64,000 bases of DNA from a virus: positions 62,001 through 126,000 of IMG/VR virus record IMGVR_UViG_3300033571_022897; one strand, given 5' to 3'. Of the stretch, positions 24,106 through 57,451 are shown in pieces. Under the pieces are notes generated by a model. It was not told the origin of the DNA. It did not search any database and was given only the letters and a program-made list of their open reading frames with translations. Position numbers and translations under genes: made by a program. The stretch's first letter is position 1. Every line of letters begins with the position of its first letter.

Positions 24106-24465
24106 ATGATAAAATTAATGTCTCTATTAAATGAATTGGATTTTGGATTCGGTATGGGTACAACAGAACCGGACTACGAAGATAAGACAATAGAGGTGAC
24201 TATCAATGATGGTCTTCAAATAAGAAAACCTGTGAAGGTTAAGGGCCAAGCGCACGTAGGGAAATTACCCGGAACAGATCTTCCTATAATATCAATGATG
24301 GTACACAAATTGGGAGATAAGCTGGAGTACAAAATAGTTTGGAATTCAAAACAGAAGACATATAATCTATTAGGAAATGATAGGGCTGTATTTGAACCAG
24401 AGAATGATGAAGCATTGAATATGTTCTTAAAATTAAGAAAGAAGAGAGAAAAAACTTCTGCGTAA
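24106..24465 (+). CDS. Tagged protein 1: MIKLMSLLNE leader, unknown body
   Basis: 119 aa. The first 10 residues MIKLMSLLNE form a short amphipathic segment ending in L-N-E, shared in pattern by twelve other proteins of this window with unrelated bodies. Proposed prohead-protease cut after Glu10. Body: acidic, beta-rich, with IEVTINDGLQIRKPVKVKG and a lysine-rich end; not recognised. Late-type motif upstream. Confidence 0.75.
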   Translation: MIKLMSLLNELDFGFGMGTTEPDYEDKTIEVTINDGLQIRKPVKVKGQAHVGKLPGTDLPIISMMVHKLGDKLEYKIVWNSKQKTYNLLGNDRAVFEPENDEALNMFLKLRKKREKTSA

Positions 24466-24469
24466 AAAC

Positions 24470-24760
24470 ATGAAAGCTTTTATTTTTGTAGTATTAATAA
24501 CCTTGTTTTCTGGATGCGCTGCATTCGTTGGTGTGTACGACGAAGACGGTATGTATTCCACCATGAATCGCAGAGTACAGATCAGACCCAGATATTCTCC
24601 CTTTTACTATCCGTCTTATTATTATGATCCGTATAGATTCTATTATCCATACAGTATAAATGCGCCCAACGTGATCATAATAAAACCCAATGAGAGCCAC
24701 AATAGCGGAGTTCAGAGGCATAATTATTCAGGACCAAGAAGAGGATCAAGAAATAAATGA
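24470..24760 (+). CDS. Tyr-rich lipoprotein, 96 aa
   Basis: KAFIFVVLITLFSGCAAF is a signal with lipobox FSGC. Mature part is unusually rich in Tyr/Pro (SPFYYPSYYYDPYRFYYPY), then Asn/Arg-rich. Envelope-located; function unknown. Confidence 0.7.
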   Translation: MKAFIFVVLITLFSGCAAFVGVYDEDGMYSTMNRRVQIRPRYSPFYYPSYYYDPYRFYYPYSINAPNVIIIKPNESHNSGVQRHNYSGPRRGSRNK

Positions 24761-24772
24761 TTAATTTAAAAT

Positions 24773-25633
24773 ATGAAAGATTTCTTCTTTGCGTATACGG
24801 TTATAGGCCCGAAAAGAATTAGACGCATACAAAATACACTAACAAATTTTCCAAAGAATTCTAACATACTGATTGTAACGAATACGCCTGAGATGTTCGA
24901 TGGTGTTTCGACAGATTGCAACTTATACGTCGTAAACATAGAGGATTTAAGAACAGACAAGAATCGAGAGCAAGAACCTTTGATCTGTTCCACAAACGAT
25001 GAGGAGTACGATGCAATATACAATTCTCGTATACACACTCGCGAGAGATTTCCAGGTCCAGTCATCAGACACGCTATGTTTTGGTTACTTAAAAACAATG
25101 CAACCAAATTTGCACTCATAGATCCGGGTTGTGCGCCTTTACGGGCAACAGAGGTGATCAATGATCTATCGAACACCACTTCCCACCAAAACATAATACT
25201 ATTAAATCCGCTGGGAAACATTCAAAGTGGAACAAATTTAAAATACATGATAGAGAGCGCGAACTGTTTAGACATCGTAGAGTCTTGCGGTGTAGACCTC
25301 AGTGAACCTAAAACCGCTTCTTTTAGATGGAGATTGGATAATCAAACAGACGACGTAAAATTAGAGAAAACAGTGGGGAGCGAGGGTTACATGTACGGAT
25401 ATTGGTTCAACAACAAAGAGAGATTGGATCTCTACTATCATCTATGGAATTCGATATCAGAGAGGATCGTAGAAACAGGCAAATCTCACGGGTGTTTGGA
25501 AGGAACGGGTTGGTCTATAGAGCAAGCAGCGGATATGGTCAATAATGTATTCGCATTTCATTTCGATACGCTTTTAGCAGGTCACAACGATATTATAAAA
25601 CACGTATACACAAGTCTTTGGCCGAAGACATAA
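24773..25633 (+). CDS. Glycosyltransferase-like protein, paralogue A
   Basis: 286 aa. FFFAYTVIGPKRIRRIQNTL, ILIVTNTPEMFD, then RFPGPVIRHAMFWLLKNNATKFALIDPGCAP: the same order of blocks occurs in 55027-56127, more distantly in 47345-48316. The layout (VxTNTP strand, hydrophobic strand ending in an acidic turn) fits a GT-A-type fold similar to GT6/GT8, but no DxD is obvious, so donor-sugar activity is unproven. Starts the second sugar block. Confidence 0.6.
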   Translation: MKDFFFAYTVIGPKRIRRIQNTLTNFPKNSNILIVTNTPEMFDGVSTDCNLYVVNIEDLRTDKNREQEPLICSTNDEEYDAIYNSRIHTRERFPGPVIRHAMFWLLKNNATKFALIDPGCAPLRATEVINDLSNTTSHQNIILLNPLGNIQSGTNLKYMIESANCLDIVESCGVDLSEPKTASFRWRLDNQTDDVKLEKTVGSEGYMYGYWFNNKERLDLYYHLWNSISERIVETGKSHGCLEGTGWSIEQAADMVNNVFAFHFDTLLAGHNDIIKHVYTSLWPKT

Positions 25634-25647
25634 TAAATGCTGAAACA

Positions 25648-25657
25648 CATATTTATA
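25648..25657 (+). promoter_or_regulatory. Late-type promoter motif CATATTTATA
   Basis: CATATTTATA 29 nt before the ATG of the RfbH-like gene, with an ACACTAAAACGTTATG leader. Confidence 0.6.
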
Positions 25658-25686
25658 GCCAGATAGGTCAAAAACACTAAAACGTT

Positions 25687-26970
25687 ATGATAGATCCACA
25701 AAACATAAACAATCTTGTAGGCAATCACGTCGCTCCCTACATATACAACAGCAAGAGCTTCGTTCCAGGGAAAACTACCGTATATTATTCCGGCCCTTAT
25801 TGGGACAACAGAGAGGTTTCTGCCGCGATAGACACTTTTTTAAACGGAAAATGGATAACTGCAGGAAGTTCTGTTCACAAATTCGAACACAGTTTTGGAA
25901 AACGATTCAATTCTAAATACAATCTAATGGTAAACTCAGGTTCCTCAGCGAACCTGGTTTTAATAGCAGCGTTAAAAAAGAGATTCGGTTGGGAAGACGA
26001 TGATGAGATCATCGTATCGCCCGTTGGATTCGCTACAACTATATCTGTCATATATCAAAACAGACTAAAACCGATGTTCGTCGACATAGAGTGGGACACT
26101 CTTAACTTTGATCTTGATGCAGTAGAGAAGAAGATAACGAAGAGAACAAAAGCCATATTCATTTCTCCAGTTTTGGGAAACCCTCCAGATTTTGATAGAC
26201 TCTTACAGATGGCAGAGAAATACGGGATACTGTTGGTCGGGGACAATTGTGATAGTTTGGGTTCTAAGTGGAGAGGCAAATACCTCAACGAATACTACGT
26301 AGCATTTTCCAACTCATTTTATCCGGCCCATCACATATCTACTGGAGAGGGTGGCATGGTTTGTACCAACGACGAACAACTTCATAAGACGATGATGAGC
26401 ATCGCATGGTGGGGAAGGGATTGCTACTGCGTTGGATCTGCCAATCTATTGGCTTGCGGAACTTGCGGTAAAAGGTTCGATAAGTGGTTGGATACCTACG
26501 AAGGCGTGATAGATCATAAGTATGTGTTCTCAAACATGGGATACAACTTGAAACCTCTAGATTTGCAGGGCGCCATAGGTTCTGTGCAGTTAGAAAAGTT
26601 GGACGAGATAGAACATAACAGAAAGAATTCAAAAAACACCATAGAGAGGATATTCACAGAGAACATAGAAGGCATATCCACGCCCAAAACCCTTGAGCAC
26701 GCCGATCCTTGCTGGTTCGGAACTCCGTTCATTTGCGAAAAGCCCGGTCTTAAGCATCGGTTGGTGGAATACTTAGAAGAAAATAAAATACAGACAAGGA
26801 ACTACTTCGCTGGAAACATACTGCTCCACCCTGGATACAGCTTCCTCGACAACAGTTCAGAATATCCAGAGGCCAACAAAGTGTTGGATAAGGTGTTTTT
26901 CATCGGCGCTGCGCCGCACTATAACGAGAACGTATTCTCATACATCGAAGAGGTAATAAAGAAATTTTAG
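25687..26970 (+). CDS. rfbH: CDP-4-keto-6-deoxyglucose 3-dehydrase (E1, RfbH/DdhC-like)
   Basis: 427 aa, full length. DegT/DnrJ aminotransferase fold: VNSGSSANLVLIAAL, GDNCDSLGSKW, and SNSFYPAHHISTGEGGMV, where His replaces the PLP-binding Lys, the hallmark of the PMP-dependent dehydrases rather than aminotransferases. RDCYC ... CGTCGKRFDKW supplies the cysteines of the [2Fe-2S] cluster. The enzyme removes the 3-OH of CDP-4-keto-6-deoxyhexose on the way to 3,6-dideoxy sugars (tyvelose, abequose, ascarylose, yersiniose). No CDP-glucose synthase or 4,6-dehydratase is recognised nearby, so host or outside-window genes must supply substrate. Confidence 0.92.
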   Translation: MIDPQNINNLVGNHVAPYIYNSKSFVPGKTTVYYSGPYWDNREVSAAIDTFLNGKWITAGSSVHKFEHSFGKRFNSKYNLMVNSGSSANLVLIAALKKRFGWEDDDEIIVSPVGFATTISVIYQNRLKPMFVDIEWDTLNFDLDAVEKKITKRTKAIFISPVLGNPPDFDRLLQMAEKYGILLVGDNCDSLGSKWRGKYLNEYYVAFSNSFYPAHHISTGEGGMVCTNDEQLHKTMMSIAWWGRDCYCVGSANLLACGTCGKRFDKWLDTYEGVIDHKYVFSNMGYNLKPLDLQGAIGSVQLEKLDEIEHNRKNSKNTIERIFTENIEGISTPKTLEHADPCWFGTPFICEKPGLKHRLVEYLEENKIQTRNYFAGNILLHPGYSFLDNSSEYPEANKVLDKVFFIGAAPHYNENVFSYIEEVIKKF

Positions 26971-26971
26971 A

Positions 26972-27670
26972 TTGGATCCTATCATCATCTTAGGGGACGG
27001 CATGTTGGGAACTTGCCTACACGAGAGGAGCGGTTGGGAGTTGCTATCCAGAAAGCGCGATGGTTTCGATTTACAAAATATAGAAGCGCACGCGAACCGA
27101 TTCGAGGGTAAAATCGCAGTGGTGAATTGCATAGCTCACACTAAAACTTACTCCAACGACGACAACCACATGAAGGTGAATTACGAGTTTGTGATAAAAT
27201 TGGTGGATCTGTGTCTAAGTAAGAACATCAAACTGGTACACATCAGCACGGGTTACGTATACACAAACAATCGAAACAATCCAACAGAAGAAGACACACC
27301 AATTCCTCAAGACACTGAATATGCAAGAACTAAACTCATGACCGACGAATATGTAAGAAGGAATATGGAGAATTATGTTATAATAAGATCAGTGCATAAG
27401 ATGAAACCTTTTCCCTACGATAACGCTTTTGTGGATCACACGGGTAATTTCTGCTACGTTGACGAAGTGGCTGATTTTATTATAGAGTGTGTTGAAAGGG
27501 ATTTTAAAGGGGTATATAATGTGGGTAAGAACACAATGTCCATGTATGAATTTGCAAAGACAACGAAACCGGACGTGAAACCATCAATTAGACCACCAGA
27601 AATGCCTGAGACGGTTACGTTCGATTGTTCAAAGTATACTAACAAAACAAATGCGATATGGAAAGGATAA
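26972..27670 (+). CDS. RmlD-like nucleotide-sugar reductase (SDR)
   Basis: 232 aa, TTG start 1 nt after rfbH. IIILGDGMLGTCL is a degenerate Rossmann motif; VVNCIAHT, LVHISTGYVYT and YARTKLMTDEY (YxxxK) follow in the order of dTDP-4-keto-rhamnose reductases. Probably reduces a 4-keto deoxysugar, in line with its position behind rfbH. Overlaps the next gene by 13 nt. Confidence 0.8.
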   Translation: MDPIIILGDGMLGTCLHERSGWELLSRKRDGFDLQNIEAHANRFEGKIAVVNCIAHTKTYSNDDNHMKVNYEFVIKLVDLCLSKNIKLVHISTGYVYTNNRNNPTEEDTPIPQDTEYARTKLMTDEYVRRNMENYVIIRSVHKMKPFPYDNAFVDHTGNFCYVDEVADFIIECVERDFKGVYNVGKNTMSMYEFAKTTKPDVKPSIRPPEMPETVTFDCSKYTNKTNAIWKG

Positions 27671-28632
27671 CAATATATCACAACAGCGACGGATCAAGAG
27701 ATTTCCACTTCCTGTTGAATCAGATAGCTACGCACATGGAAAAAAATATGGGTGCCACTTGGTTGAGGACTTACGATACAGACATAGAGTGGTTGTCTCA
27801 CAACGCTGGAGATAGAATGGCTTTTTTACGGGTGTTGGACTGCGAAATACTTATACACTACCACGACAGGGACTCTTACGTGGGAATGACATTTGGTGAT
27901 TACCACACAGAAATGACTTCGTTCTTTATAATGAGGAACAGTTCTAAAGATCTATTACTTTGCTCGCAGTATTCGAACACGGCTCTTGCGCAAGAGGACG
28001 TAAAGAATTACGTAAAGTTTCGTTGGTTCCCGTCTCTGTATGTGAAATCAAACTACAAAGTGCCGAAAGGATCAGAATTGGTGGATCACGACGAGTACTA
28101 TAAGAAGCGGCAGTCGACACAGGAATACATAGATAAGTTCATATTCCGAGGTAACGTGCACTCAATGGGAAGGGGATCTGCAATTGCCCTTGAAGGGAAC
28201 CGATGGTTCGAGGGTCCTCATTCGATGGGAGCGTACCACTTCGAAGAACTCACCAAATACAAAGTCGGTCTCTGCATACCCGGTATGGGAGAGCTGTGTT
28301 ACAGGGATATAGAATACATGGCCATAGGAATACCGATGATGAAGTTTGAGTACGTTACACAACTGAACCCACCCCTTGTACCCAATCACCACTACATCAG
28401 CATAGATCGCATAGATACTGAACAGGATTGGCAAGTATCCGGTGGAATAATAGCGGCGGAAAGAAACGGGGGAGAGCGCCAAGTTTCTGCCTATTTGAAA
28501 AGGTTTCTCGAAGTAAAGGACGATAAAGAATTCCTGGACAAGATTTCTAACAACGCGAGGGAATACTACGAAACTTACCTGCACCCCGATACCAGGCTTC
28601 AACACGCTCTTCGGTTGATGGAGATAATCTGA
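27658..28632 (+). CDS. Glycosyltransferase-like protein (GT-B style C-terminus)
   Basis: 324 aa. The C-terminal half KVGLCIPGMGELCYRDIEYMAIGIPMMKFEY has the R-x-x-E-x-M-A-x-G-x-P pattern of exostosin/GT90-type enzymes, in which a nucleotide sugar is bound; the N-terminal half is unrecognised. End of the rfbH unit; likely transfers the deoxysugar made by the preceding two genes. Confidence 0.6.
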   Translation: MERITIYHNSDGSRDFHFLLNQIATHMEKNMGATWLRTYDTDIEWLSHNAGDRMAFLRVLDCEILIHYHDRDSYVGMTFGDYHTEMTSFFIMRNSSKDLLLCSQYSNTALAQEDVKNYVKFRWFPSLYVKSNYKVPKGSELVDHDEYYKKRQSTQEYIDKFIFRGNVHSMGRGSAIALEGNRWFEGPHSMGAYHFEELTKYKVGLCIPGMGELCYRDIEYMAIGIPMMKFEYVTQLNPPLVPNHHYISIDRIDTEQDWQVSGGIIAAERNGGERQVSAYLKRFLEVKDDKEFLDKISNNAREYYETYLHPDTRLQHALRLMEII

Positions 28633-28648
28633 TTATCCAAACCGAGGA

Positions 28649-28658
28649 CGTATTTATA
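28649..28658 (+). promoter_or_regulatory. Late-type promoter motif CGTATTTATA
   Basis: Precedes the six-gene tagged-protein operon (28682-31494) by 23 nt. Confidence 0.6.
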
Positions 28659-28681
28659 AGAGTATTCAATAGAGAAAGATA

Positions 28682-29242
28682 GTGATAAGACTAATAGATT
28701 TACTAAAGGAGATGTCTCTGCACAGGTCAAACGCCTGGGAAGAATACGATCTGAAATCCATAGATCCCCAAACCCTTGAAAACATGTTCGCCTACTACAA
28801 ATCCTCTTACGAGGCTGAGGGATTGGACCTGTCTGTCAATTCGCCGCAAGAACTGCAAGCGGATTACAAGGCTGTGGCTATGATAGACGTGGACAGGGAT
28901 AAACAACCCGATTCGTTCATAATATACAAACCCACCCCGTACGGAAACAAGATATCGTTACTGTTCACCAACAGGGCTCCCGGTGCGGCGAAGGCCGTCA
29001 TACTCAAGATGATAGAACTCGTGAACACATCAGGTTGGTTCTTAGAAGCCTCTAAGAAAACAGAGGACATACTTTCTAAATCGGGCGCACCAGTTATAGA
29101 CGACGAAGACACTATCAAAGGAATCATAGGACCAAAGAAAGCAGCAACAGTCAGATTCAAGAAAGACGGATACTACGAGAGGGAGCTTGGCGCTGTGCCT
29201 GGTAAGTTCATAACAAAGAGACTGTACGGAATATCTAAGTAA
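28682..29242 (+). CDS. Tagged protein 2: MIRLIDLLKE leader
   Basis: 186 aa, GTG start chosen because it restores the shared leader MIRLIDLLKE (proposed cut after Glu10). Body has AVAMIDVDRDKQPDSFIIYK and LLFTNRAPGAAKAVILKMI, a mixed alpha/beta domain vaguely like GNAT folds; no motif allows a function. First gene of the operon. Confidence 0.72.
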   Translation: MIRLIDLLKEMSLHRSNAWEEYDLKSIDPQTLENMFAYYKSSYEAEGLDLSVNSPQELQADYKAVAMIDVDRDKQPDSFIIYKPTPYGNKISLLFTNRAPGAAKAVILKMIELVNTSGWFLEASKKTEDILSKSGAPVIDDEDTIKGIIGPKKAATVRFKKDGYYERELGAVPGKFITKRLYGISK

Positions 29243-29256
29243 AACCAAATCGAACC

Positions 29257-29556
29257 ATGATAAAATTAATCGATCTATTGAAGGAGCAAGAGCCCAACGA
29301 CCAAATGTGGAACAGAAACTTTCCCGACGATAAGGGCGAAGAGAGACGGCAACTCGTCAAGACTCTGCAACCCCTGATAGGTCAATACGGGATCAAGCCA
29401 AACGAGGTACGTACGCTATCGTTCGTTGGCAACAAAGCCAAAGTAATGAAAGTAAAGAAGGCACTCATGGCCATGGGAGTGTACGATAAGTTCAGCGTAC
29501 CGATGGCCGTTGAACCCGGAACTTGGATAACCGAGTACGAACCGCAATCCTATTGA
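29257..29556 (+). CDS. Tagged protein 3: MIKLIDLLKE leader
   Basis: 99 aa. Leader MIKLIDLLKE then QEPNDQMWNRNF. Body: charged, with VRTLSFVGNKAKVMKVKKAL; not recognised. Separated from its neighbours by 14 and 4 nt. Confidence 0.72.
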   Translation: MIKLIDLLKEQEPNDQMWNRNFPDDKGEERRQLVKTLQPLIGQYGIKPNEVRTLSFVGNKAKVMKVKKALMAMGVYDKFSVPMAVEPGTWITEYEPQSY

Positions 29557-29560
29557 TCGA

Positions 29561-30205
29561 GTGATCAAGCTGGAGAACATACTGAGAAGGAAACTTGTGA
29601 AAGAGAGCCGCATAGTAGAAGCGGACTCGTTCAAAGGCAAGGACATAATCAGTGTGGACATACAGCAGGAATACCAAAGCTATTTCACTTTCAAGCCCTC
29701 GGATTGGGGCAGGTTCCTCACCAAAAACTGGGAGGGCAACAACATCGTGTTCCTCTACAACGGCGAATCTATGGGCATGACAGACGAGGGAGGATACAAA
29801 GACTGGTTGCTCAACTACATAGACTACGAACTGCTTGACGACGCAACCTATTACGACAAGGGTTATGCGTACTTCAGGTTCTGCATGGACGAGGGCATAG
29901 ACGACGAGTTGACCGTAAAGTTCGTGAGGTTCATGCTGGCCAACGGCATCAACGATTCCAGGGATTTGGACAAAGAGGCGTGGAACAGGTTCGTGAAAGA
30001 GACAGGAGCAAACGCACAGGACATAAGGGACCTTTTAGAGACAGCCGACGACATGATCAATATACCCGATCTGATGGAGGAACTGAAGCGTTACTCAAAC
30101 CCTCTACTCATGGGCGGAGGCATAAACGAGTGCCTAAAAGAGGTGGAATTGGCGATGATGGCGCTGAACAAGCCCTACACGATATATAAGAGATTCACTT
30201 ACTGA
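29561..30205 (+). CDS. Tagged protein 4: MIKLENILRRKLVKE leader
   Basis: 214 aa, GTG start. Leader ends at VKE (residue 15). Body: DIISVDIQQEYQSYF, a central acidic helical part and LLMGGGINECLKEVELAMMA near the C-terminus; the DxxQ strand and GGGxNECL strand look like a Rossmann-like hydrolase fold, but no family is recognised. Confidence 0.7.
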   Translation: MIKLENILRRKLVKESRIVEADSFKGKDIISVDIQQEYQSYFTFKPSDWGRFLTKNWEGNNIVFLYNGESMGMTDEGGYKDWLLNYIDYELLDDATYYDKGYAYFRFCMDEGIDDELTVKFVRFMLANGINDSRDLDKEAWNRFVKETGANAQDIRDLLETADDMINIPDLMEELKRYSNPLLMGGGINECLKEVELAMMALNKPYTIYKRFTY

Positions 30206-30206
30206 T

Positions 30207-30809
30207 ATGATAAAGCTAGAGAACATCGCAAAATCGATCAAGGAGGACAAAGAAGACATATCCTTCGAGATAGACACACAGAAAGTACCTGTAAAACCTG
30301 GAGTGCTTTCGCACGAGATCATAACCATAGGAACTTTCGAGATACCCGAAGTGGGAACGGTACAGTTCCAACCGTACCGCCTGATATTCGGAGCGAACAG
30401 CTTGGCGATATTCGACGCGTTCAAAACGAACGAGGTGGCGGGTCTAACAAGACAGGAGTGCGAAGAGCACATAAAGAACCTACCGAACGGGGACGAGACC
30501 AACAACGCTTACATAGCGGGACTCAGCAACTGGGCCGGTGATCAGGCGTTCCAGTTCTTCAACGTGGCAAGGATCAAGAAACCGGGAATGGCCAACAGAG
30601 TGCTGTCCCACGAGTCGCTCCACGTAGCACGGATGCTTATCAGCCTGTTCAAGAACGATTTCCTCAGACAGAACCAAGGCAAACCCGATTGGTGGAAGGA
30701 CGAGAGAGCGGCATTCACAAACATGCAGGACGAGAACGAAGAGTTCTTCGCAGAGACGCTAGAGCGAGTTACAGGAGTGGCGTACAGCCGCTGGCAGAAG
30801 GTATCATGA
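30207..30809 (+). CDS. Tagged protein 5: leader plus HExxH metallopeptidase-like body
   Basis: 200 aa. Leader MIKLENIAKSIKE (cut proposed after Glu13). The body has NRVLSHESLHVARMLIS near residue 135, i.e. HExxH (HESLH), and ENEEFFAETLERVTG about 40 residues on, which can give the third Glu ligand: a zincin-type metallopeptidase signature. If injected with DNA it could act on a host protein early in infection (inference). Overlaps the next gene by 4 nt. Confidence 0.75.
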   Translation: MIKLENIAKSIKEDKEDISFEIDTQKVPVKPGVLSHEIITIGTFEIPEVGTVQFQPYRLIFGANSLAIFDAFKTNEVAGLTRQECEEHIKNLPNGDETNNAYIAGLSNWAGDQAFQFFNVARIKKPGMANRVLSHESLHVARMLISLFKNDFLRQNQGKPDWWKDERAAFTNMQDENEEFFAETLERVTGVAYSRWQKVS

Positions 30810-31291
30810 TAAAACTGGTAGACTTACTCAACGAGCTCAACGTTCCCAAATCGGAGGACGCGTATCCACTGACTCCGCTGCCGGGATCTACAGATTATCC
30901 GTCTCTGTTGATCAACAAGTACAGGTTCACCAATAGGAAGGGCGACGATATGACAGTGGCCGTCAACTTCGATACAAGAGACGAGGAATTGTATGTCGTG
31001 TTTTATAAGACAAGCGAGGAGGAGAGCGATGACGATGATAAGTATGCTGGAGAAACGGGCTCAGGAGATATGTTGAAAGTATTGGCCACCGTAGTCGAAG
31101 CCGTGAAGAGAACAGTAGAAAAACTTGGAGGAATGGATAAGGTGCGCAAGATCCACATAGAACCCGCGGACGAGAGAAGGTTCAACATATACATGCACTA
31201 CGCTCAGACCCTGTTCCCCGACTTCGTGGTTAAAAGGGTTGGAAAGTGGATGAGTATGCTCAACAGAAACTACAAACCCATAGAAGCATGA
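30806..31291 (+). CDS. Tagged protein 6: MIKLVDLLNE leader
   Basis: 161 aa. The frame is open further upstream, but the ATG in the ATGA overlap restores the leader and gives normal coupling. Body: MTVAVNFDTRDEELYVVFYK, an acidic loop (EEESDDDDK) and HIEPADERRFNIYMHYAQ, which resembles the C-terminal part of a small phage domain of unknown function. Confidence 0.75.
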   Translation: MIKLVDLLNELNVPKSEDAYPLTPLPGSTDYPSLLINKYRFTNRKGDDMTVAVNFDTRDEELYVVFYKTSEEESDDDDKYAGETGSGDMLKVLATVVEAVKRTVEKLGGMDKVRKIHIEPADERRFNIYMHYAQTLFPDFVVKRVGKWMSMLNRNYKPIEA

Positions 31292-31494
31292 TCAAACTTA
31301 CAACCATACTCAAAGAGGTGTCCGAGCAGCAGAGCAGGGACATGGTAACGGGAATAGCCGACATACTGCGCGACGTGAAGGACAAAGAGAACAGGAAGGC
31401 GATCGCTAAAAGGATGGTCAAGAAGTTCGATAGGGAAGGAGTCAAGTACGACGAGCAGGAGTTCATGAAGATGTGCGATATCCCGAAGGAATAG
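31288..31494 (+). CDS. Tagged protein 7: MIKLTTILKE leader, short helical body
   Basis: 68 aa. Start in the ATGA overlap. Leader MIKLTTILKE then a charged helical body (DILRDVKDKENRKAIAKRMV). Size is like the small T4 internal proteins. Confidence 0.72.
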   Translation: MIKLTTILKEVSEQQSRDMVTGIADILRDVKDKENRKAIAKRMVKKFDREGVKYDEQEFMKMCDIPKE

Positions 31495-31503
31495 ATATTT
31501 ATT
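31494..31503 (+). promoter_or_regulatory. Late-type promoter motif GATATTTATT
   Basis: Overlaps the last base of the previous gene, 24 nt before the ATG at 31528. Confidence 0.55.
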
Positions 31504-31527
31504 AATACAGATTTAAAAATCAGAACG

Positions 31528-32436
31528 ATGAAGAAGGAATTCAACTACAATAGGTACCTCAAGAACAACAGACTGCTGAAGGAGAACGCAGACATGGAAG
31601 AGGGTAACTACGGCAGCTACGGCGGTGCTTACGCAAGCAGGTACGACGGCGACATAGACAGTTCTCCACGACCCAAGTCGAACATGACTGCCAAAAAATT
31701 GAACAAGCTAAACTTGGTCAAGACGCTCTTAGCAGCCACAAAGACCAAATCAGAGTACGGTTATCCTATTCTCAACAAGGGTTGGGCTTCCGGATTCATG
31801 AAGTATATACAGATCGTAGAAGATATAGTAAAAGCGGGAGAAGACAAATTCAATCCTGAAAAGGTGATGAGACTTTCCGATAGGGTTGAAAACCTGCCCG
31901 GTGGTTGGGAATCCGCTAGGTCTGCAGGAAAGGAATGGACCAAAATGGAGATCGCAACGTCTGCACTGGCCGGAGCCCTGTACGAAGGAGAGTGGATAGA
32001 ACTGATCAAGTATTGGAACAACCTGTGTACAAGCGTTGATGCCTTTAAAGCGCCTGCTCCCAAGGGCATGAAAGAGGGATGGAGAGAGGACGCAGGCATA
32101 TACCCTACCAAGAGTTGGAAGGACATAGACGCGGACATGGACGCAGAGCGAGAGGAACTCAGGAATTCAGACGTAGTAAAGAACGCGGCCGCAAAAATAG
32201 GGAGCTTGGTATCCAACGAAGAGGGATTCTCCGCAGAAGACCTTACGTCCGTGCTCAGCACAGCGAACCTGACCCCACTGGAGTTCGAACAAGCCGCCCA
32301 AATAGGAGGATTGGAACTCGATACGATACAGTACATGGACGACGAGTTCGCGGACTACGAGGTATTGAACCAGAACTACATCGATCAAGGTGCAGCGATA
32401 GCCTTCGAAGGTGGTAAATTCCACAGCATAGGTTAA
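31528..32436 (+). CDS. Tagged protein 8: RLLKE-type leader, 302 aa
   Basis: Leader FNYNRYLKNNRLLKEN (cut proposed after Glu19), the same subtype as 46946. Next comes a Gly/Tyr-rich linker (GNYGSYGGAYASRYDG) and a helical body with NLPGGWESARSAGKEW and a long acidic C-terminal part. No enzyme motif seen. Ends before a strong terminator. Confidence 0.72.
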   Translation: MKKEFNYNRYLKNNRLLKENADMEEGNYGSYGGAYASRYDGDIDSSPRPKSNMTAKKLNKLNLVKTLLAATKTKSEYGYPILNKGWASGFMKYIQIVEDIVKAGEDKFNPEKVMRLSDRVENLPGGWESARSAGKEWTKMEIATSALAGALYEGEWIELIKYWNNLCTSVDAFKAPAPKGMKEGWREDAGIYPTKSWKDIDADMDAEREELRNSDVVKNAAAKIGSLVSNEEGFSAEDLTSVLSTANLTPLEFEQAAQIGGLELDTIQYMDDEFADYEVLNQNYIDQGAAIAFEGGKFHSIG

Positions 32437-32460
32437 TCACAACCCACCAAAAAGATAAAG

Positions 32461-32487
32461 AGGGATCCCGCAAAGGTCCCTTTTTTT
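32461..32487 (+). terminator. Rho-independent terminator
   Basis: AGGGATC / GGTCCCT stem (one T-G pair), loop CCGCAAA, then seven T. Ends the tagged-protein region. Confidence 0.88.
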
Positions 32488-32526
32488 ATTACCAAATTGT
32501 TAACGCACGACCGCCCATAATTCCCC

Positions 32527-32536
32527 CATATTTATA
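32527..32536 (+). promoter_or_regulatory. Late-type promoter motif CATATTTATA
   Basis: Ends 5 nt before the lpxH-like ATG; AGGAGA in between is one of few possible Shine-Dalgarno-like sequences here. Confidence 0.65.
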
Positions 32537-32541
32537 GGAGA

Positions 32542-46930: not shown

Positions 46931-46940
46931 CATATTTATA
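46931..46940 (+). promoter_or_regulatory. Late-type promoter motif CATATTTATA
   Basis: 5 nt before the ATG of a tagged protein (46946). Confidence 0.65.
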
Positions 46941-46945
46941 AGTGT

Positions 46946-47323
46946 ATGAAAAACAACTTCAATTTAGTGAAGTATCTGTCCAAGGGTAACAGGCTTCTAA
47001 AAGAAAACATCGGCGGGATAGTAACGCTGAAACCCATCAATTCGGTAGACACCCTCAGGGAAACTTACGGTGCCGAGATGGAGGACGAACCTGTTTCTGA
47101 TTATCCAGACATGGGCGCCGCTCCTGATCCGGGTGACATGCCCATCGGTACTTCCAAAAACAGATTGGATTCCATAGTCACTAAGATGAAGCAACTCGCA
47201 ATGGCGTACAAGTCGGGAGACACTTCTGTGGTTCCCCAGTTGAAGGCGCTCAGCGCAGAAAAACGCAGACTTGAAGCTGAGCTCCTGGACGTCGGTCAGG
47301 ACGACAGCGATGCGGGTTTTTAA
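46946..47323 (+). CDS. Tagged protein 9: RLLKE-type leader, 125 aa
   Basis: Leader FNLVKYLSKGNRLLKEN matches 31528 (cut proposed after Glu20). Body is acidic, Pro/Asp-rich (SDYPDMGAAPDPGDMP) and ends in a charged helix. No domain recognised. Confidence 0.72.
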   Translation: MKNNFNLVKYLSKGNRLLKENIGGIVTLKPINSVDTLRETYGAEMEDEPVSDYPDMGAAPDPGDMPIGTSKNRLDSIVTKMKQLAMAYKSGDTSVVPQLKALSAEKRRLEAELLDVGQDDSDAGF

Positions 47324-48316: not shown

Positions 48317-48340
48317 TCATTCACTAGAAATATAAATTTG

Positions 48341-48369: not shown

Positions 48370-48383
48370 CTATAATAAGAGTT

Positions 48384-49148: not shown

Positions 49149-49149
49149 T

Positions 49150-50253: not shown

Positions 50254-50255
50254 TC

Positions 50256-51266: not shown

Positions 51267-51268
51267 CA

Positions 51269-51278
51269 CATATTTATT
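51269..51278 (+). promoter_or_regulatory. Late-type promoter motif CATATTTATT
   Basis: 18 nt before the ATG of the next tagged protein. Confidence 0.6.
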
Positions 51279-51296
51279 GGTATAAATCTGTAATAA

Positions 51297-51815
51297 ATGA
51301 AAACCAGGGAAGTAAAAAAATTACAAAAGATCGCGGGCATTTTAAAAGAAAACGCGAACATCGTTTCAGAAGCTCTTATGAGAATCGAATGGGAAGACCT
51401 TGATCACACTGATATCAGCGGTCAGGCCATGGAAATGGAAATTATCGAATTGATCGATAGAGTAGAAGAAACAATACAATTCGAATTGACTAACGATGCC
51501 ACCGTTAGCCAACTGAACCGTGAGAATCCTAGACAGGCCGCTGCACAGATCAGACTACTCATAAAGCGACTTTGGTTACAAAAAATACAAGAGTGGAGTG
51601 CAACGAATAGAGGAATGAACGAGATGTTCGGAGACGATTGGCACCCTGAAACTACGGCCGATACGGTTCAGGCACCCCAAGCAGGAACTGAGGAAGACGT
51701 GTTGGCCGCCATGATCACTGCCCTGCAAGACGCTGGCTTCTCTAAGCAAGACATCGAACAACTTTCTCACACCATTTCAAACGATCCAAAAGTATTGGAC
51801 TTCGGGGATTTTTAA
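51297..51815 (+). CDS. Tagged protein 10: REVKKLQKIAGILKE leader
   Basis: 172 aa. Leader ends ILKEN at residues 15-19, nearly identical to 54729 although the bodies differ. Body: acidic, helical, with Gln-rich stretches (AAMITALQDAGFSKQDIEQL). No enzyme motif. Confidence 0.74.
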   Translation: MKTREVKKLQKIAGILKENANIVSEALMRIEWEDLDHTDISGQAMEMEIIELIDRVEETIQFELTNDATVSQLNRENPRQAAAQIRLLIKRLWLQKIQEWSATNRGMNEMFGDDWHPETTADTVQAPQAGTEEDVLAAMITALQDAGFSKQDIEQLSHTISNDPKVLDFGDF

Positions 51816-51823
51816 ATATCAAA

Positions 51824-52786
51824 ATGATGAAGAACATAAACCTTTTAAACTTACTAAGCAAAGCTCTTAAAGAGGCCGAGGAACCAAAACCTGATTCTGA
51901 AAAAGCTCCTGTTAAATCAGACCAAGAGGCTGCATCTAAACTGAAGCGTGCTTTTCAGGATCCCAAGGTTTCTGGTTTCGTGCAAAAGTTTAGAGCGATA
52001 GCTCAGGATCCAAAAGTACAGGCCGTACTCGCGGCTGGTAAAGGCGATAAAAAGGGACCTGAGGACGAGCAGTTAGTTTACGAGAGGGTAATGATACCAG
52101 TGTTAAACCTAAAACCTACACAGAACGAGATAGGTTTCGATCAGAGCGTAATGGGTCTTTTGACCGACGAGTATAAGAGTTTGAAAAGCATACTCGACGG
52201 AACCAATCCGGATGTGGGCGGGGAAATCGTAATTTATAACTCTATGTACGTCATAGACGGTCACCACCGTTGGAGCTCTGTTTTTGCTGGTAATCCTAAA
52301 GCAAAGATGGCGGCTTTCAACATAAAGGGTAAGTTAAAACCCACAGAGGTGTTGAAAGCTGTTCACGCAGCCATCGCTATAATAGCTAAGAGAGTTCCCA
52401 CTGCAGAGCCGAAGGGCATAAACATCCTGAACGGGATATCTTACGAAAAGGTACTGGAGAAGGTCAACAAGAATCTATCTAAGGAAGCTAAGACGATTTG
52501 GGCGGAAAACGGTCAGAAGAGCAACGAAGAGATCGCAAAGTACATCAACACCAACTTACAGAAATTAATATCAATGAACAAACCTGTTCCCGGTGCGCCT
52601 GGCAGAATAGACATGCCGCAGACCGACGCTAAAGGTACGGGTGTGATAAAAAATAAGTTAGATTTGCTTTCGAAAGGCGTGGTGAATTTTAACGAACCCG
52701 CTCCAAACGATAAACAAATTAAAGAGACACTGCAGCGCAGGGCAGGCATAAAACTTTCAACTCAAAATGCTGACAGCGAACAATAA
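51824..52786 (+). CDS. Tagged protein 11: leader plus ParB/sulfiredoxin-like body
   Basis: 320 aa. Leader NINLLNLLSKALKE (cut proposed after Glu17). The body has VIYNSMYVIDGHHRWSSVFA near residue 140, the DGHHR box of the ParB N-terminal/sulfiredoxin superfamily, which includes nucleases and CTPases. The last 25 codons are a duplicate of the start region of the next ORF (73-bp repeat), so the stop at 52784-52786 may be secondary. Confidence 0.75.
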   Translation: MMKNINLLNLLSKALKEAEEPKPDSEKAPVKSDQEAASKLKRAFQDPKVSGFVQKFRAIAQDPKVQAVLAAGKGDKKGPEDEQLVYERVMIPVLNLKPTQNEIGFDQSVMGLLTDEYKSLKSILDGTNPDVGGEIVIYNSMYVIDGHHRWSSVFAGNPKAKMAAFNIKGKLKPTEVLKAVHAAIAIIAKRVPTAEPKGINILNGISYEKVLEKVNKNLSKEAKTIWAENGQKSNEEIAKYINTNLQKLISMNKPVPGAPGRIDMPQTDAKGTGVIKNKLDLLSKGVVNFNEPAPNDKQIKETLQRRAGIKLSTQNADSEQ

Positions 52787-52856
52787 ACAAATTAAAGAGG
52801 CACTACAACGCAGGGCCGGCATAAAACTTCCAACTCAAAATCCTGAGGTGCAGAGT
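52711..52856 (+). repeat. 73-bp tandem duplication with frameshift
   Basis: TAAACAAATTAAAGAG starts at 52711 and again at 52784; the units match over ~60 bp with mostly third-position changes (KQIKE(T/A)LQRRAGIKL in both). 73 is not a multiple of three, so the ParB-like ORF ends in unit 2 and the following ORF takes over in another frame. Confidence 0.85.
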
Positions 52857-53123
52857 TGGCTCTCAACGCCCATCGGACAGAAGTACGTTCAACTCGTGCA
52901 GATTCTCATGGCTGCAGAGGAAAACATGACCGCTTTCATAGATAGTCACGCAGCTGGAACGCCGATGAGTCCGAAAGAGAGAGCACAATACATGGCGATT
53001 CAAAAGGCTTCCGATAACGCGAACAAGAACGAGATAGCTTTTCGTAGAAAGTACGTCGTTCCGCAGGCAGAAAAGCTGTTAATGTCTTGGACAGACTTCA
53101 TGGACGCTGCCAAACAGGCGTAA
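52767..53123 (+). CDS. Downstream half of split tagged protein, 118 aa
   Basis: Begins MLTANNKQIKEALQRRAGIK, repeating the C-terminal segment of the previous protein, then a helical body (QKYVQLVQILMAAEENMTAF) with an Ala/Lys-rich end. Either a separate protein born by duplication or the original C-terminus of the ParB-like protein now out of frame. Confidence 0.62.
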   Translation: MLTANNKQIKEALQRRAGIKLPTQNPEVQSWLSTPIGQKYVQLVQILMAAEENMTAFIDSHAAGTPMSPKERAQYMAIQKASDNANKNEIAFRRKYVVPQAEKLLMSWTDFMDAAKQA

Positions 53124-53125
53124 AA

Positions 53126-53250
53126 AATAACGCGCTGACGGCCAATGAGTTGTGCAACTGATTGGTAACCAATAAGAATAATTTTAGGGGGCCTATGTCC
53201 GGATATGCAAGATTTCGGTAGTTTTACTATGTAATCAATCAATAAAGGTT
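53126..53250 (+). promoter_or_regulatory. Repeated operon-head element, copy 4
   Basis: CCAAT (53142) ... GTTGTGCAAC (53149-53158) ... ATTGG (53161-53165), then AGGGGGCCTATGTCCGGA (53186-53203) and -7 box TAGTTTTAC (53219-53227), leader AATAAAGGTTATG. Arms differ from copy 1 but still pair. Confidence 0.8.
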
Positions 53251-53445
53251 ATGACAACAGTAAGACATTTAATGCTAGACCTCACAGACGTAGAAACCGC
53301 AGAACAGGCTCAGGACTGGGCGATCGATCTGGACAAAGCGTACAACGCGGGTCTGGTCAGCGAAAAGGCCTACGAACTTCTGCAAGGCGAACTTCAAGTC
53401 CACGCCCGTTTCGAGAACATTGAACTTACCACCGTTAACCAATAA
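53251..53445 (+). CDS. Hypothetical protein, 64 aa
   Basis: First gene behind copy 4. Acidic helical (DVETAEQAQDWAIDLDKAY). Not recognised. Confidence 0.7.
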   Translation: MTTVRHLMLDLTDVETAEQAQDWAIDLDKAYNAGLVSEKAYELLQGELQVHARFENIELTTVNQ

Positions 53446-53450
53446 GAGTC

Positions 53451-53672
53451 ATGAAACACCTCAGCTTATTTCAAGCCAGCAAAGTAGCGGAGTACATCCG
53501 CGCCAACAGCGATCGCTTCCCCTACGCTGCACACGTCGCAAGGGAAATTGAACTCTTCTCGCGCAAGGACGGTATGGTATACCACTTCGTTGTGAAGGAC
53601 TCTCTCGGTGATGAGCCGATGCCAGAGATCGAAGCCAACTGTGTAATGTATTTTGAATTAGAAAAAGCCTAA
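53451..53672 (+). CDS. Hypothetical protein, 73 aa
   Basis: AATAAGAGTCATG leader. Small alpha/beta protein (HLSLFQASKVAEYIRANSDR). Not recognised. Confidence 0.68.
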   Translation: MKHLSLFQASKVAEYIRANSDRFPYAAHVAREIELFSRKDGMVYHFVVKDSLGDEPMPEIEANCVMYFELEKA

Positions 53673-53684
53673 CCAATAAGAGTC

Positions 53685-53891
53685 ATGACAACGATAACCA
53701 AACTCAGCAGATACAAAGATAACCTCAGCATCATCAACGAGAACGGGGAGACCTACGTGCAGTCCTACTCATCGCGCGTGGCCAAAGTGGAGGGTCCCTT
53801 CCTACGCCAACTAGGTTGGTGGAGCACAACCACCCAGAAGCACATCAACTACGCTGCAAGCCAACTGGGACTGGAGCTGATCCGTAAGTGA
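53685..53891 (+). CDS. Hypothetical protein, 68 aa
   Basis: AATAAGAGTCATG leader. Beta strands with TYVQSYSSRVAKVEG then a helical end (HINYAASQLGLELI). Not recognised. Confidence 0.68.
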   Translation: MTTITKLSRYKDNLSIINENGETYVQSYSSRVAKVEGPFLRQLGWWSTTTQKHINYAASQLGLELIRK

Positions 53892-53917
53892 GAACGAACC
53901 AAAAACAAGCAAAAGCC

Positions 53918-54073
53918 ATGAAAACAGTTTGGAAATCAGTATCGATCGAGGATCTCATCAAAGCTTTGCAAAAAGCACAAGACACGGGCGCAAAAACTGC
54001 CCAAGTCAACGGAACAGTAATGGTTCCCGATAACGGCAATCTCATCTTGATAAGTACAGAAAAACAATCGTAA
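53918..54073 (+). CDS. Hypothetical protein, 51 aa
   Basis: MKTVWKSVSIEDLIKALQKA; a GTG start at 53888 would add ten residues. Not recognised. Confidence 0.58.
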   Translation: MKTVWKSVSIEDLIKALQKAQDTGAKTAQVNGTVMVPDNGNLILISTEKQS

Positions 54074-54095
54074 ACGTAATCAACCAATAAAAGTT

Positions 54096-54503
54096 ATGAA
54101 ACAAGCCAACCTCAAACAGCAAATCGAAGCATTCAAAAACGGTCAGTTCCTCGAGTCAGACGGGGCCGTAGACACCGGTTGCTTCAACTTCTACGACTGG
54201 TTCTGTAAGGACACCAGCCTCAGGAACAAGGCGCGTCGACTCTTCGGCAACGTCAAGACTTTCCTCAAGCACAATCCCGAGATCGATCCGACCAAGTACT
54301 ACGTGTTCTTCAAGAACAACTGTTCTATGGCCTACGGACTCTACGACGACTTCAGGATCTGCGACATGGAAACTCAAGACGTGATTTGGAACGTGACGCC
54401 CAGATCAGCACACTCAGGAATGGCCGAGGTGTGGGGCAGAGTCAACGATTTCAAAGCTCCGCTCAAACAGGCAGAAACTTTCAAAAAGCTGTTTAGCAAC
54501 TAA
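54096..54503 (+). CDS. Hypothetical protein, 135 aa
   Basis: AATAAAAGTTATG leader. FNFYDWFCKDTSLRNKARRL and KYYVFFKNNCSMAYGLYDDF; family not recognised. Confidence 0.7.
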   Translation: MKQANLKQQIEAFKNGQFLESDGAVDTGCFNFYDWFCKDTSLRNKARRLFGNVKTFLKHNPEIDPTKYYVFFKNNCSMAYGLYDDFRICDMETQDVIWNVTPRSAHSGMAEVWGRVNDFKAPLKQAETFKKLFSN

Positions 54504-54507
54504 AACC

Positions 54508-54636
54508 GTGGATCACAACTCGTTCAACGCTCTGTTCGTCGTGCTCACCGTAATGTCCGCCGTGTTCGTCCCCATATTAGCCAACAGGCATATTTATAGG
54601 CATGACAAAAGCAGAAAAAAAGTACAAAAGCCGTAA
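54508..54636 (+). CDS. Small membrane protein, 42 aa
   Basis: GTG start. NALFVVLTVMSAVFVPILA is a membrane segment, then a basic tail (RHDKSRKKVQK). The tail codons overlap the promoter box and the next ORF in another frame. Confidence 0.4.
   Translation: MDHNSFNALFVVLTVMSAVFVPILANRHIYRHDKSRKKVQKP
54589..54598 (+). promoter_or_regulatory. Late-type promoter motif CATATTTATA
   Basis: 3 nt before the ATG at 54602; leaderless arrangement as at 11507. Confidence 0.6.
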
Positions 54637-54700
54637 GCGCATACAAAAGGTCAATCGCAAGATCAACCAGCGAAAGGGCATTCACCGAAAGCACACATAA
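54602..54700 (+). CDS. Highly basic micro-protein, 32 aa
   Basis: MTKAEKKYKSRKRIQKVNRK and a similar remainder: about half Lys/Arg. Its own late-type box on each side supports it. Could bind DNA in the capsid or RNA. Confidence 0.6.
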   Translation: MTKAEKKYKSRKRIQKVNRKINQRKGIHRKHT

Positions 54701-54710
54701 CATATTTATT
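54701..54710 (+). promoter_or_regulatory. Late-type promoter motif CATATTTATT
   Basis: Abuts the previous stop, 18 nt before the ATG of a tagged protein. Confidence 0.6.
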
Positions 54711-54728
54711 TCCATAAACGTAAAACAA

Positions 54729-55019
54729 ATGGCAAGATTACGCGAAGTGAAGAAACTTCAAAAAACCGCGGGCATTCTTAATGAAAACTTAGGAGCTGCA
54801 GAAGCAGCTGATTACAGCGAAGCGGCATTCAACATCGATAAGTTCATGCCAGACGACGAAACAATAGCGATGGAGTACTTCAACTTAAAAGATGAGGGTG
54901 ACGTAGAGCAACTAGTGGGCTTCTTAGAACAAGAGGCTGACATGGAAGTTCTAGACCGTTACATGCCAGAGGGCGGAACACTAGAGGGATTCGCAGAATA
55001 CTTGATCAACAATATCTAA
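54729..55019 (+). CDS. Tagged protein 12: REVKKLQKTAGILNE leader
   Basis: 96 aa. Leader ends ILNEN (residues 15-19), near-identical to 51297. Body: very acidic, AAEAADYSEAAFNID and DEGDVEQLVGFLEQEADMEV; unrelated to the 51297 body. Converges with the minus-strand gene; 7 nt between stops. Confidence 0.73.
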   Translation: MARLREVKKLQKTAGILNENLGAAEAADYSEAAFNIDKFMPDDETIAMEYFNLKDEGDVEQLVGFLEQEADMEVLDRYMPEGGTLEGFAEYLINNI

Positions 55020-55026
55020 GAGAAAT

Positions 55027-56127
55027 TTAGATCTTATCGAATCCGTCTATTATTATGTTAGCCACTTCGCGTCCGTAAATCGCCTCTATCTCGTCTTTGT
55101 TCGCCTTTAAAAACTCCTCTCTGTTGTTCGCATCCGTAGGAGTTCCAATGGAACCAAGTTTCGGAAAAAACGCTGGGGCTTTATTTATCACCCAATCGTT
55201 TTCCGGTTGGTAGAAGTGTGTGACTATGCCGAAATAAGAAGACAGAGTTGTGTTGTAGTATCTGCACAGTAGCGTGGCCAAATACGCAAAAATGGCCTCG
55301 AACTCTACGTAGTAAGTACCTCCTGGTCTTATGTATCCCACTTCGTAACCGGTCTTAACGTAATCGTTCCAAAAATCTAGAGCGGTCTTAATTATGTTTA
55401 TGTCGTGCACGTAGAAACCGTAACCGAATCCGTCAGAAGTCATGCACACGTACTCTTTGATCCCGTCCTCTTCTCCGGATTGCAATACAGGCATTTTTTC
55501 TGGATACGTGTTTATGTCGAAGTTGGGAACGTATTTCTTGAAAAGCTCGTGGAGTTGAGAATCTTTCGACAGTATCGCGTGTTTTAGTGGATCTGTGGGA
55601 GAATCGCCTGTAGGGCCCCAAATATTCGTGATCATGAGGTTGTGTCCCTCTTTGAACTTTTTGGTCAACAAGTCGAAACCGTTCTTTGTTATTTGTTCGT
55701 AACCAGGGAAACCTATCTTGCACCCTATGTCTATGACCATGAATTTTGTGACGTTGTGCTCAATGGCCCAACTCATAGCGTATCTGAATATCGCTGAGGG
55801 ATACCTGTAAGTCTCTTCGGTGTACAACCTTTTGTATTCCATCATGTAGGCTGTTTCGTCCTGTATGTCTAAGACCCTCTCGTACTTTCTGCTCCATTCG
55901 GGACGGTGCTTTTCGAGATCGTCTACTATCAAATTGAAGTTCTCTGGTTTAACATCGTTTAGTAGTTTCGGGGTATTTGTTAGTACAACCACATTTGTGC
56001 CGTCAGGCATGTAGGGAAAGTACTTGATCAACGGCCTAACGTAGTTGTCCCCAGTGAGAACGTAGAAAAAGTAGAAATCTTTCCAGTCTTCTATGTTGTT
56101 AACGAAAAAATCCTTTTTTAGTTCCAT
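55027..56127 (-). CDS. Glycosyltransferase-like protein, paralogue B
   Basis: 366 aa. FYFFYVLTGDNYVRPLIKYF, NVVVLTNTPKLLNDV, DDLEKHRPEWSRKYERVL, YRYPSAIFRYAMSWAIEHNVTKFMVIDIGCKIG: the closest relative of 24773 in this window, with ~80 extra residues. GT-A-like fold assumed. Transcribed away from 54729. Confidence 0.62.
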   Translation of the reverse strand: MELKKDFFVNNIEDWKDFYFFYVLTGDNYVRPLIKYFPYMPDGTNVVVLTNTPKLLNDVKPENFNLIVDDLEKHRPEWSRKYERVLDIQDETAYMMEYKRLYTEETYRYPSAIFRYAMSWAIEHNVTKFMVIDIGCKIGFPGYEQITKNGFDLLTKKFKEGHNLMITNIWGPTGDSPTDPLKHAILSKDSQLHELFKKYVPNFDINTYPEKMPVLQSGEEDGIKEYVCMTSDGFGYGFYVHDINIIKTALDFWNDYVKTGYEVGYIRPGGTYYVEFEAIFAYLATLLCRYYNTTLSSYFGIVTHFYQPENDWVINKAPAFFPKLGSIGTPTDANNREEFLKANKDEIEAIYGREVANIIIDGFDKI

Positions 56128-56187
56128 GTATTTTTATGTTTATGGTTACAAAATTAATTTAAGTGAGCTGCCATGCGCTTTATGGGA

Positions 56188-56706
56188 TCACTTCACCTGG
56201 CTGTATAACGTATCTATGGACCCGGAATTGTGATACTCTGGGTTAGACGGATGCAGTTCTGGGTTGGCTTTAACGTCTCTCTTAAAGAACCTTCCTGCTA
56301 TCGAATCGTTGTAGGCGTCGGTGTGTAGCACTTCCAACTTAAACTGCCAGTATTCTTCGTAGTAGGTCAATTGTTTCTTGGTGAAACACACCTCGAGTAT
56401 CTCCTTTGTGAAGTGTTTCTGGCCAAGGGATTCTATGTCCCTAAGCAGCGGCACGTTGCTGCCGTTGTACTCGAGCCAATTGCTCTCTTTGACCACCTTC
56501 TTTTTCTTGGGTACCCGACCGGGTTTTTCCCACTCGGAGATCTCCTTCTTCGTGAGCTTTTTCGTGAGCCTGTTCTGTAGCGATTTTTTCCCTATGTATA
56601 TCCTTCCGTTGGTGGTGTTCGTGATCATGTACACGAAACCGACTGCTTTATCTGGGAATTGGGAAGCTTCTGTTATTTCTTTACCTTTGTACAACCATTT
56701 ATTCAT
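56188..56706 (-). CDS. GIY-YIG endonuclease-like protein
   Basis: 172 aa. GFVYMITNTTNGRIYIGKKS is the GIY-YIG core (GFVY ... YIG), with basic residues after it (KKLTKKEISEW) and QKHFTKEILEVCF, YYEEYWQFK (Glu metal ligand) later, as in Seg-type phage endonucleases. Likely a free-standing homing or DNA-processing nuclease. Confidence 0.78.
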   Translation of the reverse strand: MNKWLYKGKEITEASQFPDKAVGFVYMITNTTNGRIYIGKKSLQNRLTKKLTKKEISEWEKPGRVPKKKKVVKESNWLEYNGSNVPLLRDIESLGQKHFTKEILEVCFTKKQLTYYEEYWQFKLEVLHTDAYNDSIAGRFFKRDVKANPELHPSNPEYHNSGSIDTLYSQVK

Positions 56707-56713
56707 GCGTTAC

Positions 56714-57451
56714 TTATTTAGTCATTAACTTTTTTACCAAATCAACGTGGCCTTCTCCCGCTATAATGATTGGGATTTTTCCGCTTGAAGAAATCTCTCT
56801 TTGTTTTTTAAGTAAATTAAAATCCCTTGCAAGGTTGAAAGCAACTTGAATGGTATTAACTCCCGTTTCCACATCTCCGTTATCTTCGGGAAAAGATAGT
56901 CGATAAAGCGTATCTATGTCTTGGGGAGTTGGATCCTGCCAATCCTCTATAGGAGGAAATCCCGCTTTTTTCGCGGATTGCTGTAAAAAGATCTTGCCTT
57001 CTTCATCCAGAAAATGGTTTGGAGACATGGTATCTGTTCCTTCTCCCTGTCCTATCATGCTTGCCCAGTTACCGGCTTTTATCTTGCTTTGTGATAGACC
57101 TGTTTGATCCCTTTGAGATTTGTACAGATCCGATTGCTCGTTGTGAACGTCTAATTCGTCCCCGTCCCATGTATCAATGGACGCTCCCATTTCTTCGAAT
57201 TTTGGGACAGCGTAATTCATCTCGTCGTGAAACTGTAAATCGCCATCTTCGTTATTCGCTCCGCCTTCTCCAACGAATACAACGTCTTTCCACATTTCTT
57301 CTGGAACTGTTTTTTTAACGTAATCTACTATGTCATCGATAGCTTTGTGATCTCTGTGAATAACGCCAAAAAGATATCCTCCACCACTAAATTTAATGGT
57401 TTTAACTGGAGGGGAAGCGACCTCCAACAATATATCCATAAGCTTTATCAT
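56714..57451 (-). CDS. Tagged protein 13: MIKLMDILLE leader, TraB/ChaN-like body
   Basis: 245 aa from the ATG 2 nt behind the late-type box; an upstream in-frame start would precede the promoter and is rejected. Leader MIKLMDILLE (cut proposed after Glu10). Body: YLFGVIHRDHKAIDDIVDYV, VVFVGEGGANNEDGD and C-terminal IPIIIAGEGHVDLVKKLM, the GEG/GEGH spacing of the EreA/ChaN/TraB-like fold, whose members act as peptidases or bind haem-like ligands. Function unproven. Confidence 0.75.
   Translation of the reverse strand: MIKLMDILLEVASPPVKTIKFSGGGYLFGVIHRDHKAIDDIVDYVKKTVPEEMWKDVVFVGEGGANNEDGDLQFHDEMNYAVPKFEEMGASIDTWDGDELDVHNEQSDLYKSQRDQTGLSQSKIKAGNWASMIGQGEGTDTMSPNHFLDEEGKIFLQQSAKKAGFPPIEDWQDPTPQDIDTLYRLSFPEDNGDVETGVNTIQVAFNLARDFNLLKKQREISSSGKIPIIIAGEGHVDLVKKLMTK

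Follow-up and report, generated by a model that had tools for sequence, protein, structure and literature searches.

Candidate capsid-targeting leaders on a varied set of proteins encoded by a T4-type phage

What is the function of a short N-terminal segment that recurs on otherwise dissimilar proteins within one stretch of phage DNA? The stretch in question, here called the window, comprises 64,000 nucleotides (bases 62001-126000 of the 183,411-base virus record IMGVR_UViG_3300033571_022897), and a preliminary description of it proposed that thirteen of its proteins share a tag of the type that directs T4 internal proteins into the head. Beyond the window, the same 183-kb T4-type genome encodes a terminase, a gp20-type portal, an S77 prohead protease and a gp23-type major capsid protein (the portal and capsid protein being identified by profile match), along with a contractile sheath, a tail tube and baseplate wedge proteins. 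The virus is a T4-type myovirus, and its host is probably a bacterium of the Bacteroidota. By capsid protein, identity to the nearest cultured relatives is 53% for Flavobacterium phage immuto and 47% for Microcystis phage Mel-JY01, with Rhodothermus phage RM378 more distant at 35%; no DNA-level relatives of the window were found among phage records.

Leaders and the proteins behind them

All thirteen open reading frames were found to begin where the preliminary description placed them, with the leaders that it quoted. The N-terminal tags are real, but they are not a single tag: three related leader forms can be distinguished, each about 10-20 residues long and ending in [L/I]xE, with V in place of L or I in some. 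Leader A, MI[K/R]Lxx[L/I]LxE, is found on the plus strand in the genes at 24106-24465 (119 residues; MIKLMSLLNE, then L), 28682-29242 (186 residues; MIRLIDLLKE, then M), 29257-29556 (99 residues; MIKLIDLLKE, then Q), 30806-31291 (161 residues; MIKLVDLLNE, then L) and 31288-31494 (68 residues; MIKLTTILKE, then V), and on the minus strand in the gene at 56714-57451 (245 residues; MIKLMDILLE, then V), where the MIKL start lies at 57451 and the longest open reading frame starts at 57475. The first of these has an orthologue in relative G002 that begins MIKLESLLNE. Looser versions of leader A occur at 29561-30205 (plus strand, 214 residues; MIKLENILRRKLVKE, then S) and 30207-30809 (plus strand, 200 residues; MIKLENIAKSIKE, then D), and perhaps at 51824-52786 (plus strand, 320 residues; NLLNLLSKALKE, then A); with their loose leaders, these three are the weakest members of the set. 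Leader B, [F]N..YL..NRLLKEN, begins the plus-strand genes at 31528-32436 (302 residues; FNYNRYLKNNRLLKE, then N) and 46946-47323 (125 residues; FNLVKYLSKGNRLLKE, then N), and leader C, KLQKxAGILxEN, those at 51297-51815 (172 residues; KKLQKIAGILKE, then N) and 54729-55019 (96 residues; KKLQKTAGILNE, then N), also on the plus strand. Some local features of the window can be recorded here. The stop codon of 30207-30809 overlaps the start at 30806, and the beginning of 52767-53123 (NNKQIKEALQRRAGIKLPTQN) repeats the end of 51824-52786 (NDKQIKETLQRRAGIKLSTQN): a leader-C-like piece lacking Glu is duplicated here. A tmRNA gene at 16411-16806 has an unusually long predicted tag peptide of 25 residues, AEEISAFTFEDAMAFVGAEEYALAA.

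The common ending [LIV]-x-E, on which the original proposal was built, has fared unevenly. The bare motif falls within residues 8-26 of 34% of the N-termini and in 21-33% of other stretches, and with a frequency so near background it was dropped as evidence for tags. The fuller leaders are a different matter. M-I-[K/R]-L starts were counted in 8 of about 224 genes (seven found by script, plus 31288) versus 1 of 1377 internal ATG or GTG codons (p=1e-6), and the core of leader C occurs 20 times in seven genomes versus 1.15 times in shuffled proteins. Those seven genomes, this one and six relatives that include the cultured phage immuto, all carry the same leaders; immuto has about 10 tagged genes, among them gp231 (MIKLIDLLTE, then S), gp083 (RMQKLAGIITE, then S) and gp076 (KILKE, then N), and the tagged set varies widely from relative to relative. 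The search for more tagged genes that had been proposed also turned up a further clear case outside the window, at genome position 163689 (RMQKLAGILSEG) within the head operon, which brings the genome to at least 14; those at 153191 and 155700 are probably tagged too. Some longer proteins (loci L326, L137, L182 and others) also have motifs of the leader A or C type internally or C-terminally, perhaps as cut or binding sites.

Behind the leaders, the proteins are indeed unrelated, as had been claimed: all-against-all BLAST of the sequences after residue 18 gave a best E value of 0.055. Clues to their functions within the window are limited to three of them. The 51824 protein has a weak ParB-like nuclease match, and its homologue in Mel-JY01 (41% identity) begins with another leader, MGILKQLLKE. 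The 30207 protein has a HESLH motif of the zincin-like HExxH type at residue 135; its single-sequence fold prediction reached a pLDDT of 38, so the zincin reading is drawn from that motif. The 30806 body is DUF6934-like, with a match below the curated cut-off, and has tagged homologues in relative G004 and in immuto. Pfam and PHROGs searches with the other window bodies gave nothing or sub-threshold matches, and none of the window bodies matches a known internal protein. No relatives were found for 28682 and 51824 in the viral contigs searched, nor for 30207, 31528 and 30806 in the phage records searched. The predicted structure of the 57451 protein is confident (pLDDT 90.6) from about residue 16 and disordered over residues 1-12, and comparison of the model with solved structures gave no convincing match. 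This body recurs in 62 other viral contigs, inside longer proteins of about 300-1200 residues; where their starts can be seen, these mostly open with other leader-like segments, in some cases followed by a nucleotidyltransferase motif. Leader-like motifs between modules would suggest that the long tagged proteins are cut into pieces, and none was seen in the eight examined, the N-terminal leader excepted (two).

A much larger pool of tagged proteins emerges from viral contigs at large. Exact leader patterns that include the Glu retrieved at least 199 distinct closed bodies in at least 124 clusters, of which at least 93 have a single member (two leader scans). In two clusters, homologous bodies from different phages bear leader A in one case and leader C in the other, an exchange of leaders on related cargo. 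Enzyme-like cargo consists of zeta-toxin/AAA kinases, together with weak NT5C, ParB and ART matches. At least 20 of the tagged proteins form one cluster of zeta-toxin-type kinases, and in G004 a leader stands directly before a complete domain of this type, with the match beginning at residue 13. A role for the tagged proteins as effectors is a reasonable expectation rather than a result, since the hints from the window cargo are thin.

A protease, a scaffold tail and a late-type element

The preliminary description made its proposal depend on a gp21/S77-type prohead protease, and the genome encodes one (E=1.9e-23). Aligned with T4 gp21, it keeps the catalytic His and Ser motifs, GEL[N/D]HP and [V/I]SSR, and a prohead protease is carried by 13 of 14 related records. 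A probable substrate site can be recognized in the capsid protein: among 81 related sequences E62 is never replaced and residue 60 is always V or I, directly before the mature domain. This conserved [VI]xE site fits cleavage of the gp21 type, like that of T4 gp23 (FLTE, then A). Does the Glu of the leaders behave like part of such a site? When a leader-A pattern ending ahead of the Glu was scanned over viral and cellular collections, position 10 was occupied by Glu in 86 of 102 viral matches versus 5 of 38 cellular ones (p=6e-15, counting distinct N-terminal matches among those listed, with some loci shared with an earlier scan that required Glu). With the leader-C pattern stripped of its Glu, position 11 was Glu in 28 of the 34 matches listed; that set includes loci collected earlier with a Glu-requiring pattern, so the leader-A figure is the cleaner of the two.

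A further resemblance links the leaders to the head. The protein between the protease and gp23, for which a profile search gave no match, is by its position the candidate scaffold (the gp22 role), and it ends in SRWQKIAGIK. The form R-[WM]-x-x-x-AG-[IL] is kept in all seven aligned genomes and in all 34 distinct scaffold tails among 51 relatives. By sequence, leader C (KRMQKLAGIxxE) amounts to this tail plus a cut site, and in some viral contigs the scaffold C-terminus is itself leader C. Across the seven genomes, [SNT]R[WM]Q with K, V, Q, I or T as the next residue is confined to scaffold tails and the extreme C-terminus of the 30207 protein, SRWQKVS, which resembles the tail. Leader A in turn resembles the capsid protein N-terminus, MANLVQSLLxE. 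T4 gp24 (MAKINELLRE, then S) and gp22 (MLKEQLIAE) also start in the leader A form; these are the vertex protein and a core protein, structural components rather than accessory cargo. The two resemblances together suggest that the tags may imitate contacts between core and shell. We consider it an even bet that they are portable decoys, with leader C modelled on the scaffold tail and leader A on the N-terminal tip of the capsid propeptide, and if so, any protein given either peptide would be built into the prohead. The idea is limited to this clade, because the C-terminus of T4 gp22 (SVYAKVASRF) has no such tail match.

The tagged genes may also be expressed late. An element, ATATTTAT, lies on the plus strand at 24082-24089 upstream of 24106, at 31495-31502 upstream of 31528, at 46932-46939 upstream of 46946, at 51270-51277 upstream of 51297 and at 54702-54709 upstream of 54729, and on the minus strand at 57456-57463, immediately upstream of the MIKL start at 57451; a late-promoter-like TATTTATA lies at 28651-28658 (plus strand), upstream of the tagged run 28682-31494. 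Genome-wide, ATATTTAT is found 12-38 bases ahead of sheath, tube, terminase, head and tagged genes, and it is a putative late promoter. In this genome it stands ahead of 7 of 13 tagged genes (twelve from the window, leaving out 31288, plus 163689) versus 25 of 210 other genes (p=6e-4); of the six tested genes without an element of their own, four belong to the run behind 28682. Because it was on tagged genes that the element first drew attention, the relatives provide the fairer test, and in the six relatives alone it precedes 12 of 42 tagged genes versus 142 of 1210 others (p=0.003), a signal that comes mainly from G004 and G007, with no separate enrichment in immuto, Mel-JY01, G002 and G009. 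As side observations, ATATTTAT closely resembles the T4 late promoter core, TATAAATA, in reverse complement; a search of the genome for a sigma factor gave no Sigma70_r2 match, and a gene at genome positions 141551-142297, guessed to be gp55-like, had no PHROGs match.

Packaging, delivery and the alternatives

The capsid-targeting proposal emerges from this analysis well supported: the protease, the additional tagged genes, the position of the Glu, the exchange of leaders and the late-type element all fit it. It is very probable, as judged from sequence evidence, that the leaders are T4-type capsid-targeting sequences, and the tagged proteins would accordingly be packaged, cut and delivered. 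On this reading, the tagged proteins would be made late in infection, alongside the head proteins, and the leader would bind the assembling prohead core, perhaps through mimicry of the scaffold C-tail or of the capsid N-terminus. The tagged protein would then be enclosed as the gp23-type shell closes, and the gp21-type protease would cut after [L/I/V]-x-E to release the mature protein. This protein would remain with the DNA for delivery to the next host and could act there at once, for example in counter-defence, as an enzyme or in host take-over.

A different fate is imaginable for proteins that enter the prohead. T4 gp67 and gp68 are core proteins that are cut up and lost at maturation, and the tagged proteins might likewise be core or assembly factors that are never delivered. 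Leader C does occur on head-operon proteins near the protease and scaffold in many relatives, and [L/I]xE sites are also present in T4 core proteins. Against this, the cargo of at least 124 clusters is too diverse and too often enzyme-like, and its make-up changes widely from one relative to the next, as that of conserved assembly factors would not; we therefore regard such a role as improbable for the set. Still harder to sustain is the suggestion that the leaders are amphipathic helices with some other job, such as membrane contact, oligomerisation or translation control, and that the Glu is incidental. The leaders are short and amphipathic and the bare motif is common, as this explanation would have it, but a helix needs no Glu at a set place, and the Glu is fixed in viral and not in cellular leaders of the same pattern. 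The likeness of leader C to the scaffold tail and of leader A to the capsid N-terminus, and the nearly constant presence of the protease in related records, likewise speak against it. The least credible alternative is that a loose motif was matched by chance and the genes were selected by eye. The near-background frequency of bare [LIV]xE is what such selection would give, but the excess of M-I-[K/R]-L starts and of leader-C cores, and the recurrence of the same leaders across independent genomes, refute it where the leader is full; taken singly, 29561, 30207 or 51824 could still be such a case.

Relation to known packaged proteins

Packaging by a T4-style capsid-targeting sequence is thus the best reading, a system of known kind that is here expanded and in a new variant. 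What is new is the number of tags, the three leader forms, their spread in environmental phages and the match to the scaffold tail; no earlier report of these was found in the open-access literature searched. Loading foreign proteins with the T4 capsid-targeting peptide is a decades-old practice, and to our knowledge the peptide's recognition partner is little understood; a tag that matches the phage's own scaffold tail makes the recognition question directly testable. We know of hardly any packaged proteins in phages of environmental bacteria. Used as a label, the tags single out hundreds of phage proteins that lack annotation and are probably packaged. Counter-defence proteins are likely to be among them, as are enzymes that act as soon as infection begins, and the tagged genes of the cultured relative immuto make the prediction testable now.

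Among other phages, many head proteins of phiKZ and SPN3US, including ejection proteins, are cut C-terminal to Glu by the prohead protease (PMC5694885, PMC9026906); the motif there is S/A-x-E or A-x-E, mostly after long propeptides, whereas here about 10-20 residues precede an [L/I/V]-x-E site. Polyvalent proteins of the phage P1 DdrB type, with their ParB, metallopeptidase and ART domains, have been predicted to be multi-domain effectors that are packaged (PMC5512222). The resemblance to these lies in the 57451 domain, which elsewhere forms part of tagged proteins as long as about 1200 residues; by length and context, only these relatives of 57451 seem to have the polyvalent make-up of two or more effector domains per chain. 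Searches among the window proteins gave no multi-domain match and, unlike polyvalent proteins, they look single-domain and are linked by the leader rather than by common domains.

The closest parallel is with T4 itself. There, a leader of ten residues suffices for packaging, residues 4 and 7 serving in targeting and residues 8 and 10 in processing, and substrates are cut after L/I-x-E (PMC9026906). The internal proteins of the T-even phages have nothing in common but the leader; Ip1-3 inhibit distinct type IV restriction enzymes (PMC12373910, PMC3012670). The proteins described here resemble T4 IPI, IPII, IPIII and Alt in the short N-terminal leader with its hydrophobic-x-Glu site and in the accompanying gp21-type protease and gp23-type head, and they resemble the internal proteins in having unrelated bodies with the leader alone in common. 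They differ in that the tagged genes are more numerous and the leaders come in three forms, one of which is like the scaffold tail.
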